Shown here: piece by piece, positions 48,990 to 51,655 of the stretch
Layout of the letters: every line of letters starts with the position of its first letter
Position numbering within the stretch: the first letter of the stretch is position 1
Source of the DNA: Sulfitobacter sp. DSM 110093
GTDB taxonomy: Bacteria; Pseudomonadota; Alphaproteobacteria; Rhodobacterales; Rhodobacteraceae
DNA: 64,000 bases
Direction of reading: 5' to 3'
Assembly (NCBI RefSeq): GCF_022788715.1
Contig: NZ_CP085167.1
Coordinates: forward strand, 1,671,001 to 1,735,000
Translations under genes and position numbers: made by a program
The notes under the pieces: generated by a model
Seen by the model: the letters and a program-made list of their open reading frames with translations, nothing else
Databases searched by the model: none
Told to the model about the DNA's origin: nothing

Positions 48990-49121
48990 GCGAATTCGCG
49001 TACTTACAGATACTATTTATTTACATAATACTGATTATAAGTATCAGTCTGCATTTTGGGGTGGATTCACAAATGAAGTGCGAATTCTGTATCAATACAG
49101 GACCTTGCATGGAGTTGATCA

Positions 49122-49658
49122 ATGGGACGCTGCTACCCTCACCTAAACCTCGAAGAACGCCGCAAGCTGGCCAAATGGCTTGATGCGAAGATACCAATCA
49201 AAGAGATCGCCGACAATCTGCGTCGCGCGCCCTCAACAATCTACCGCGAGATCAGGCGGAACTTCTATCATGACGAAGAACTGCCACAGCTGAACGGCTA
49301 CCACGCTGTGAACGCGCAGGACAGATACGAACAACGCCGCGCGGTGCATCGTAAGTTGATCCGATATCCTGACATCATGGCGGCAGTCCGCGACGGACTT
49401 GATGCGGGTTGGTCGCCTGAACAGATCGCGGGACGCATGCGGCAAGAGTGCCATCCCATGCGCGTCAGCCATGAGACGATCTATCGTTATGCTTACTCCA
49501 AAGACGGCCGTGCTGAGAAGTTCTATCGCCATTTACCAGAGCATCGCCGACGCCGCAGGCCACGCGGAACCCGCAGGCATCATGGGCGCAGATTTCTTGA
49601 TGAAATTGCCATAGCCCATCGCCCCGAAGCGATAGCCGAACGTAGCCAATTCGGGCAT
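49122..49658 (+). pseudogene. IS30 transposase, N-terminal half (interrupted)
   Basis: These 179 codons start MGRCYPHLNLEERRKLAKWL and include the HTH-like IPIKEIADNLRRAPSTIYREI and WSPEQIAGRMR, typical of IS30 transposases. The reading frame stops two bases into the inserted IS, right after ERSQFGH. The missing catalytic part resumes at 51025 with WECDL. This half could still be made as a DNA-binding fragment that might compete with intact IS30 enzymes. Confidence 0.9.
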
Positions 49659-49744
49659 TGATGGTGTGGATGCCCCACCCCTGAAGCGGCATCAAAGTGT
49701 GCCATAATGGTGATGTTGAAAGCACCAAATTGGAGGAAGCATCC

Positions 49745-50770
49745 ATGAATGAAGTTACAATGATCGGCGTCGACTTGGCAAAGTCCGTTTTCCAGGCACA
49801 CGGCGCGACGGCTACTGGTGAGCCAATGTTCCGCAAGAAACTAACTCGGGGTCAGTTCCTGAAGTTCTTGGGCGAACAGCCCTCTTGCGTGGTCGCAATG
49901 GAGGCATGTGCGTCATCGCACTACTGGGGTCGCGAGATCATGAAGTTGGGCCATGACGTCCGCTTGATCCCACCTATCTATGTGAAGCCATTCGTTAAGC
50001 GCCAGAAGAATGACGCAAACGACGCCGAGGCCATTGCGGAAGCGGCAGTCAGGCCCACAATGCGATTTGTTCCTGTCAAATCGGCTGAACAACAATCCCG
50101 TTCGATGGTCTTCAAGACACGGGATTTGTTTGTTCGGCAACGTAACTCCATCATCAATGCGCTGCGTGGTCATTTGATGGAATACGGGATCATCGCCCCT
50201 CCCGGTCGGAACTTTGTAAAGAAGTTAGCTGAACAGATTGATAGCCCGGATTGTGACCTGCCTTCAATTGTTATTGAACTCAGCCATATACACTTGGATC
50301 AGCTAAGTATCATTACTGACAAAATAGTTGCGATAGAGCGGCGCCTGAAAGAAGAATCGAAATCCGACCCAGAAACGATCCGATTGCAAACTGCGCCGGG
50401 GGTCGGACCTGTGAGTGCAATGGCGATCAAGGCATTCTCCCCGCCGCTAGAAGGCTTCAAACGCGGTCGGGATTTTGCGGCATGGCTGGGTCTGGTCCCG
50501 GTTCAGAAATCAACAGGTGGGCGGCAAGTGTTGGGGCGAACATCAAAGATGGGGCAACGCGACATCCGACGACTGCTGATCATCGGCGCCATGACCCGGA
50601 TCAGATGGGCGATCAAAAATGGACCACCTAAAGGGTCGTGGCTTGAGCAAATGTTAGAACGCAAACCACGTATGTTGGTCGCAATCGCGTTGGCTAACAA
50701 AACAGCCCGAACCATTTGGGCAATGATGACGAAGCATGAAGATTATCGAGATCCGATCGCGACGGCGTAA
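49745..50770 (+). CDS. IS110-family (IS1111-type) transposase
   Basis: This 341-residue protein has the RuvC-like DEDD domain (IGVDLAKSVFQAHG, VAMEACASSHYWGREI, KNDANDAEAIAEAA) and a C-terminal transposase_20 domain with TAPGVGPVSAMAI, FAAWLGLVPVQKSTGG and the serine-containing KMGQRDIRRLLIIGAM. IS110-family enzymes excise and insert through a circular form and are guided by an RNA made from the non-coding end of the element. The gene appears intact. The start at 49745 (MNEVTMIGVDLAK) follows GGAGG. Confidence 0.93.
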   Translation: MNEVTMIGVDLAKSVFQAHGATATGEPMFRKKLTRGQFLKFLGEQPSCVVAMEACASSHYWGREIMKLGHDVRLIPPIYVKPFVKRQKNDANDAEAIAEAAVRPTMRFVPVKSAEQQSRSMVFKTRDLFVRQRNSIINALRGHLMEYGIIAPPGRNFVKKLAEQIDSPDCDLPSIVIELSHIHLDQLSIITDKIVAIERRLKEESKSDPETIRLQTAPGVGPVSAMAIKAFSPPLEGFKRGRDFAAWLGLVPVQKSTGGRQVLGRTSKMGQRDIRRLLIIGAMTRIRWAIKNGPPKGSWLEQMLERKPRMLVAIALANKTARTIWAMMTKHEDYRDPIATA

Positions 50771-51024
50771 GCCTGCAACGCTCGGTATGATGTGAGAAGG
50801 ACATTGAGACAGTAAGGACAAATGATCGACCAGATCGAGGTTAGGAAAACCAGGCACTCCCAGAGAGCTCCGCGCTCGTGTCATTGATATGGACCCAACC
50901 TTCGCATCGCCATACCGGCCCGCGGCATGTGAAACGTCGCAAATTGAGGCCTGACACATGACCGTACCCGATCACATGTTTAAACCGTCAAATTATCTCT
51001 TGCATCAAAGCGGGCATCCACACA
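50771..51024 (+). ncRNA. Candidate bridge/seekRNA in the IS1111-type right end
   Basis: IS1111-type elements encode their guide RNA downstream of the transposase. Here that 254-bp non-coding end holds GCACTCCCA (50854-50862), the exact reverse complement of TGGGAGTGC (51025-51033), the nine target bases directly abutting the insertion point. This is what a right-target guide should look like. A left-target guide was not recognised with confidence. RNA ends are not defined; the interval is the whole right end. Confidence 0.6.
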
Positions 51025-51495
51025 TGGGAGTGCGATCTGGTGATGTTCCGCAAGGAGTTTGGGAAAGCGAATGTGACTTCGTTGGTCGAACGCGTGAGCC
51101 GGTTCGCTGTCGTTTTAAAGAACCCAGATCGTCAGTCAAAGCCGGTGATGGAAGGCCTGATTGATAGCTTATCTCCCCTGCCCGCTGAAGCCCGTCGCAG
51201 CATCACATTTGATCGCGGCACAGAGTTCACTGCCTGGCGGCATTTGAAAGCTGGGCTTGGTGTCGACGCTTGGTTCTGCGACCCCCAATCGCCTTGGCAG
51301 AAGGGTACGGTCGAAAACACCAACAACCGTCTACGCCGCTACCTTCCGCGAAAGGCTGATCCCACGGTGTTCACAGATCGATATTTAAGGTCGATCTGCG
51401 ACCGTCTCAACAGCACGCCGCGCAAGTGTCTGGGGTATCAAACGCCCGCTGAAGTCTTCCGATTGAACCTGATGGAAAGGGTGACGTCACCCTGA
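51025..51495 (+). pseudogene. IS30 transposase, C-terminal catalytic half (interrupted)
   Basis: From the TGG at 51025 the frame reads WECDLVMFRKEFGKANVTSL and continues through TFDRGTEF and KGTVENTNNRLRRYLPRK to the stop: the D, D and E of the IS30 DDE core. It is 156 residues and lacks its own natural start. Joined to 49122-49658 it would give a 335-residue IS30 transposase with no other lesion visible. Confidence 0.9.
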
Positions 51496-51655
51496 TAAAC
51501 TGATCAAACAGAAATTGCGCTTCAACGTGAGTTCACATTGCCACGGCCCCGTTGTTGCGATCTTCTCGCCACAGTAGCACCTCAATGGCACCTGACGCTG
51601 GACAGCGCCAGTTTCGCTCCGTTAACACTGTCTAGATGGTATTTAGCGAGTGAAT

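Follow-up and report, generated by a model that had tools for sequence, protein, structure and literature searches.

A nested IS1111-type element of Sulfitobacter carries a predicted seekRNA with guides matching a conserved tryptophan motif of IS30-family transposase genes

Introduction

IS4321 and IS5075, which reportedly target the terminal repeats of the Tn21 family, are the nearest precedent of the nested insertion sequence described here, which is located in a window of 64,000 nucleotides (the whole stretch of DNA that was analysed) of Sulfitobacter sp. DSM 110093: As in these two, an IS1111-type element appears to be specialised on other mobile elements. Whereas IS4321 and IS5075 use a terminal repeat, the target in the clade of the window element would be coding sequence at a conserved transposase motif, with guide variants that track the codon variants. 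IS621, in turn, targets REP elements. Homing endonuclease genes and inteins sit in conserved active-site codons; they are protein-guided and are spliced out or in-frame. Like them, the window element would take advantage of a conserved protein motif, a broad target that is hard to lose and in which changes at synonymous positions are tolerated; in contrast to them, it would be RNA-guided and it destroys the host gene. A literature search on this parallel returned nothing direct.

For the IS1111 family, the available text of PMC11187229 describes the seekRNA elements ISEc11, ISKpn4, ISPst6 and ISPa11, with a short linear target, attC sites and REP sequences as targets, and gives a C-terminal-domain motif (GL-P----S(t)G), sub-terminal inverted repeats of 11-13 bp and short asymmetric extensions of 7 and 3 bp (or, in some cases, of 6 and 3 bp) as characteristic. 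The window element resembles these four, as far as they are described there, in its downstream non-coding region and sub-terminal inverted repeats, in the position of the top-strand match 5' of the bottom-strand match with both matches overlapping in the target, and in the apparent natural reprogramming between relatives; it differs from them in its target, a coding motif of transposase genes (the term IS30 is absent from the main text of PMC11187229). A pair of guides for the targets on the left and on the right of a 2-nt core is shared with the IS621/IS110 bridge RNA (available text of PMC11208160). However, the RNA of the IS110 group lies mostly in the left end (same text) and its guide order is reversed relative to IS1111 (available text of PMC11187229), whereas the window element has a downstream RNA in IS1111 order. 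Searches of the open-licence PMC literature brought up no report of an IS110/IS1111 element that targets IS30 or another transposase coding motif. The mechanism is already known; what would be new, as deduced from sequence, are the target class and guides that follow the codons.

Results

Anatomy of the nested element

Judged by its transposase and its ends (Table 1), the nested element is an IS1111-family insertion sequence, in agreement with the original prediction, which had been made from the letters of the window without database searches. The transposase matched the NCBIfam model NF033542 ('IS110 family RNA-guided transposase', 4.3e-87), and ISCro4 (9t56) and IS621 (8wt6) were its PDB relatives by sequence (E up to 0.001). 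It combines the RuvC-like DEDD N-terminal with the PF02371 C-terminal domain in 341 aa (usual length in IS1111, 330-350), and GLVPVQKSTG in the translation fits the family signature. The perfect 11-bp sub-terminal inverted repeat leaves extensions of 6 and 2 bp (or of 7 and 3 bp, taking the repeat as 10 bp long); a long non-coding region (254 bp) follows 3' of the transposase gene, and the transposase genes of insert and host are co-directional in 20/20 IS30 sites, both as in IS1111. The arrangement of IS110/IS621-type elements, with a guide RNA in the left end, was not found: the upstream end measures only 86 bp and the guides are located downstream. Rfam (4227 covariance models) gave no match in 49100-51600 at E up to 1. 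The right half of the interrupted IS30 host scored marginally under the Pfam rve cut-off; the junction lies between the His and Trp codons of the GHWECD motif, i.e. immediately before Trp as had been proposed.

Table 1. Features of the nested element, its predicted RNA and its host (positions in the window)
Feature	Position	Strand	Remarks
Interrupted IS30-family element that hosts the nested IS	49061..51537	+	left half: NCBIfam IS30; right half: Pfam rve, slightly below cut-off
IS1111-type element, 1366 bp with one copy of the shared TG	49659..51024	+	ends from empty-site comparison (L177)
Left target ...GGG CAT TG, Gly-His of IS30	49651..49660	+	
Left sub-terminal inverted repeat TGTGGATGCCC	49665..49675	+	perfect inverted match to 51012-51022; position kept in relatives
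DEDD transposase gene, 341 aa + stop	49745..50770	+	PF01548 + PF02371
Downstream non-coding region with predicted seekRNA, 254 bp	50771..51024	+	
Predicted seekRNA core	50837..50902	+	stem 50837-50845/50894-50902; inner stem 50850-50852/50890-50892; apical hairpin 50865-50868/50874-50877
Predicted right target guide GCACTCCCA; complement of 51025-51033 (top strand), in the internal loop on its 5' side	50854..50862	+	covaries with right flank
Predicted left target guide GTGTCATTG, sense of left-flank top strand; 3' side of internal loop	about 50878..50886	+	matches CAYTG left flanks and upstream variants
Right sub-terminal inverted repeat GGGCATCCACA	51012..51022	+	perfect inverted match to 49665-49675; position kept in relatives
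Right target TGG GAG TGC, Trp-Glu-Cys of IS30 GH-WECD	51025..51033	+	

Empty site and copies in the own genome

Two Sulfitobacter indolifex plasmids carry an intact IS30 with 99.2% identity to the window IS30 over the right/second half, the empty site of which (compared in L177) reads TTCGGGCATTGGGAGTGC. In this single empty-site comparison, the 2-bp core TG, present at both junctions, is all they have in common, so that the element ends where the original prediction had placed its ends, with one TG counted inside; as in IS1111 elements, a true target duplication is absent from this one site.

The own genome contains four identical copies of the element, all of them with TGGGAGTGC at the right edge. 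Three reside inside the same IS30, and all three copies of this IS30 detected in the genome are interrupted. The fourth (L002) is inserted in a gene with a PMT domain in its right part, in a different reading frame; its junctions read TGGGAGTGC at the right and CACTG at the left edge despite the unrelated gene. Six CAYTGGGARKGY sites in the genome are still empty: none of them reads CAYTGGGAGTGC / TGGGAGTGC, and two lie in intact IS30 genes of the WEGDLI kind.

The chances are about even that the three IS30 copies spread as a composite of IS30 and nested IS and would then represent one insertion, uninformative on targeting. Two of them (L001 and L004) are identical over 49058-51537, and the outer ends of L001 show a possible GGGG duplication (those of the window IS30 copy, 49058-51541, show no target duplication). 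As the composite may well hold for the own genome, the three copies were counted as one site; it does not account, however, for the insertions in other IS30 subfamilies in other genera.

Nine-base match and predicted seekRNA

The nine-base match between the right non-coding end and the insertion edge, i.e. GCACTCCCA as the complement of TGGGAGTGC, was found exactly at the coordinates given by the original prediction and is, as claimed there, unlikely by chance: the expected number is 0.0009 in 246 positions, and 8/5000 composition shuffles of the non-coding region contained a match. Its weight rests on the relatives, given the covariation described below and the same edge bases in L002. A second 9-nt complementarity between RNA and flank within the first 40 nt of the right flank (51033-51041 to 50829-50837) lies inside the RNA scaffold; it was rejected as a guide and taken as chance, since L002 has the identical RNA and another flank at this position.

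In the consensus fold of 25 sequences (21 of the clade and 4 from outside; 24 distinct), a long stem is followed by a stem of three pairs, an internal loop and a hairpin at the apex; this hairpin was obtained by folding the 21 clade sequences and is absent from the 25-sequence fold. Paired cells amounted to 95.0%, and changes on both sides were present in 10/16 pairs. Kinship inflates the shuffle counts as well as the permutation and wobble counts given below; with this reservation, four of five measures were reached by 0/500 shuffles and the fifth by 1/500, and none of the 500 matched either the 95% paired cells or the 10/16 two-sided changes. Sliding of the partner strand cut the pairing to 17-52%. 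Because related sequences can beat shuffles without any structure, more weight was given to the slides and to the both-sided changes.

In the consensus fold, the two guides occupy opposite sides of the internal loop, the right guide (top-strand match) being located 5' of the left guide (bottom-strand match), which is the IS1111 order. That the right non-coding end holds a target guide, as proposed, was borne out, in that the nine bases are unpaired in this fold and covary with the flanks; the left guide, for which a position had been lacking, could be placed on the opposite side of the same loop, with a U opposite both CAT and CAC. That the guide lies in a loop and not in a stem stood in the alignment fold, but not throughout the single-sequence folds, which were mixed: several members pair part of a guide, and part of the guide is also paired in the minimum-energy fold of the 254-nt region (z -2.0).

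Insertion sites, kinship and sister groups

Insertion sites were taken from the best 80 of 278 contig matches, from 8 of 581 ranked plasmid records and from searches of genomes, in each of which few candidates were scored; two further plasmid regions added no site. Merging of duplicates left 29 sites, with L001 and L003 counted together with L004: L006-L008, L117, L130-L136 and L139-L146 were merged with named equivalents, L009 with L036, L121 with L120, and L005, L034, L115, L119, L151-L153, L181 and L182 as other own-genome duplicates, while the clade fragments L014 and L118 were taken in.

Twenty of the 29 sampled sites clearly lie in IS30-family transposase genes, the flank frame running to the junction, and define a target motif with [GD][HN] before and WE[C/G/A]D after the insertion point. 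Readable left flanks (17/20) end with His (16) or Asn (L123); readable right flanks (16/20) start with Trp-Glu in 16/16 cases and have a blastp match in 15 (none for L037 with only 17 residues). The identity of the right flanks to the window IS30 ranges from 35 to 100%, and several IS30 subfamilies are therefore hit. The host of L160, a weak 21st case, is probably a degenerate IS30 (NCBIfam IS30 0.0017, below cut-off; frame shifted).

Other transposase genes are hit inside IS66 TnpB (L042; PF05717 matched by both halves), at the C-terminal end of Tn3 TnpA (L047; PF01526 on the right side only, left peptide without match), at the end of an IS5-type transposase (L040) and, antisense, in an ISL3 transposase (L044; left-side match), so that transposase genes are the host at 24/29 sampled sites (25/29 with L160). 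Sites outside known transposase genes comprise the PMT gene of L002, an antisense insertion in a periplasmic-binding-protein gene (L129) and two sites at which no gene was identified (L120 and L036). The expectation that all insertions would be in IS30 is thus contradicted by the same element in the PMT-type gene and by relatives in IS66, Tn3, IS5 and ISL3 genes and elsewhere. An RNA tuned to IS30, as originally suggested, agrees with most guides and with the 20/29 sites clearly in IS30, but not with the guides of L042 and L047; the clade is not restricted to IS30. As to single loci, L014 is an 87-bp left-end remnant (98% identical) within an IS30 gene, cut off by a sequence that we take to resemble an IS6-type end, and a Leisingera copy (L125:3866-3940) contains two GGTATCCACACA ends 74 bp apart, an apparent right-end duplication.

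In the tree (23 rows), the TGG-guide clade is monophyletic (support 100/100), with at least 5 changes of the guide class (TG or GG). Within the clade, the insertions in IS66 and Tn3 group together (90/77) and share a branch with L044 (ISL3) and L046 (IS30) (100/96); this can be read as a switch of hosts from ancestors of the IS30 type. Among the named hosts are Sulfitobacter, Pseudosulfitobacter, Leisingera, Alloyangia, Paracoccus, Marivita, Roseovarius and some Rhizobiales. In a class-wide draw of 385 genomes (at most 2 candidates scored per genome), E 1e-60 was reached by the own genome only, so that the clade seems rare, the sample being small; viral contigs yielded two loci with 57-61% identity.

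An IS30 target common to the sister groups was considered and rejected, as the sister flanks differ. Right flanks of the sister IS1111 elements L051 and L053 (also L054, L058 and L064) read TGG[A/T]GCCTCCG..; two of this L053-type group, L053 and L051, adjoin IS3-family transposase matches (left of the insert), and the group may target IS3-type ends. In a further sister group (L050, L055, L065, L068, L069, L071 and L082), right flanks read TGACCCGG and left flanks are like CTGAGAGCTG; the right flank of L050 repeats a TTTCCA..GAGAATTGACCC motif and is possibly a multi-repeat IS end.

Covariation of guides and flanks

The right-flank comparison covered 25/29 sites (L014, L046, L116 and L118 were left out, their right end not being found by pattern). 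Counting Watson-Crick and G.U pairs, 207/225 positions paired in these 25 insertions compared to a permuted mean of 189.5 (sd 3.4, p 5e-5; kinship ignored), so that the nine bases do covary with the adjacent flank, the behaviour to be expected of a guide according to the original prediction. Unique guide-flank pairs gave 171/189 (n=21, p 5e-5; kinship ignored), and positions 6-9 of the unique IS30-host pairs 45/52 (n=13, p 0.008; kinship ignored). A tree-based comparison of guide class with flank class contained three usable independent pairs, two of which agree and none of which oppose (p 0.5).

Differing guides meet differing flanks: GCCCTCCCA at TGGGAGGGC in L037, GCCTTCCCA at TGGGAAGGC in L123 and GCATTCCCA at TGGGAATGC in L045; in the IS66 TnpB host, the guide of L042 reads TGGGACGGC at TGGGATGGC, and in the Tn3 TnpA host, that of L047 (GGTGTTCCA) reads TGGAACACC at TGGAATACC. 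Poor fits were L129 (guide TGGGAGTGC at TGGAGTGGC), L036 and L044 (6/9 each) and L035 (7/9). Pairing of the left guide was weaker than that of the right guide; under the left guide, 5/16 cells at the third position of the Gly codon are mismatched.

Guides, codons and wobble

At the 16/20 IS30 insertions with readable guide and flank, seven right guides spell Trp-Glu-Cys (TGG GAG/GAA TGC/TGT) and nine Trp-Glu-Gly (TGG GAG/GAA GGC/GGT). Among the hosts with Cys or Gly at this codon, 6/6 Cys-reading guides are found at Cys and 5/6 Gly-reading guides at Gly (Fisher 0.008; L160 left out), whereas four IS30 hosts with an Ala codon (L035, L043, L124 and L127) fit neither, their guides reading Cys or Gly.

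In the 20 in-frame transposase hosts (L160 included), non-Watson-Crick cells at codon third positions comprised 22 wobble pairs and 7 mismatches, compared to 1 and 10 elsewhere. Restricted to the His/Tyr, Glu and Cys/Gly codons, the third-position counts were 20 wobble pairs and 2 mismatches (one A.C); the Gly codon left of His, with 2 wobble pairs and 5 mismatches, speaks against the wobble idea at this position. As most synonymous changes are transitions, and as the guides share kinship, the pattern hints that the guides tolerate synonymous codon differences but does not prove it. For IS621, an rG:dT pair has been reported at a tolerated mismatch position (available text of PMC11208160).

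Guide-compatible empty sites

Unoccupied CAYTGGGARKGY matches in 13 genomes of the genus Sulfitobacter served as control and were scored for IS30 only: 27/85 compatible empty sites lie in IS30 genes, or 11/66 after merging of near-identical contexts. The share of IS30 among the insertions exceeds that of the control both for 20/29 (Fisher p 5e-4 against 85 sites, 1.2e-6 against 66 merged sites) and for 21/29 (p 1.5e-4 and 2.5e-7, respectively). A single genome, G002, supplies 17 of the 27 IS30 control sites; these are uninterrupted guide-compatible WEG-type sites among 20 pattern matches (L189, L201, L235-L243 and L247-L252), and a DNA search of this genome for a close copy of the element found none.

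These figures bear on the view that a short DNA motif (about CAYTGGGA) alone guides the element and that the abundance of IS30 is a survival bias, insertions in host genes having been lost. It would agree with the same nine bases at the PMT-type gene site of the own element, with the sites outside transposase genes (L036, L120 and L129) and with the 27/85 compatible empty sites in IS30, a share that reflects the many IS30 copies of some genomes. We nevertheless regard it as rather unlikely: the guides follow the Cys or Gly codon of the flank (the four Ala sites excepted), changed guides are found in the IS66 and Tn3 genes, and IS30 is more frequent among insertions than among compatible sites. 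Survival bias, with hits in host genes being purged, may make up part of this excess; both the targeting and the purging of harmful insertions may have a share in it. That the nine-base match is a coincidence and protein-DNA contacts choose the target, to which the poorly matching sites could be referred, is most improbable in view of the covariation of the guide with the flank, the covarying RNA fold and the seekRNA function published for the family (available text of PMC11187229).

Discussion

The reading preferred here, to which we assign a probability of about 0.88, is that an IS1111 seekRNA with two guides spelling a conserved Trp motif of transposase genes, above all of IS30, directs insertion. 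Anatomy, covarying RNA fold, guide-flank covariation, site census and empty site were all established by sequence; that the RNA is made, is bound by the transposase and directs insertion would follow by analogy with the IS1111 relatives. According to this proposal, the downstream seekRNA would carry a pair of short guides, one on either side of a single internal loop, of which the 5' one pairs with the top strand right of the TG core and the 3' one with the bottom strand left of TG. The guides would spell the codons of the conserved Trp motif, chiefly Gly-His/Trp-Glu-(Cys/Gly)-Asp of IS30, and insertion would occur in one orientation, three codons before an Asp (presumably the first catalytic Asp of IS30), thereby splitting the host gene. 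Many guide bases opposite third positions are U or G and could wobble-pair with either synonymous base, so that one guide could serve silently differing IS30 genes; we infer that this tolerance is actually used and that transposase genes are a favoured niche. Point changes in the guide would switch the targets of the clade between WEC and WEG and those of two relatives to IS66 TnpB and Tn3 TnpA.

Whether the clade consists of hyperparasites of transposase genes is a more evenly balanced matter: its codon-degenerate guides might follow the protein motif instead of a single DNA sequence, and a few guide substitutions might suffice for a switch of host, from the Cys to the Gly type of IS30, to IS66 TnpB or to Tn3 TnpA. 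If true, it would show how RNA-guided transposons pick evolutionarily safe and abundant targets, namely codons of a conserved motif in the transposases of competitors, for which a change of these codons would be costly. Close relatives, in which a series of natural guide changes comes with matching targets, would make the specificity rules, the wobble tolerance and the host switching of IS1111 seekRNAs directly testable, and a natural check on the expansion of IS30 in marine alphaproteobacteria is suggested as well.
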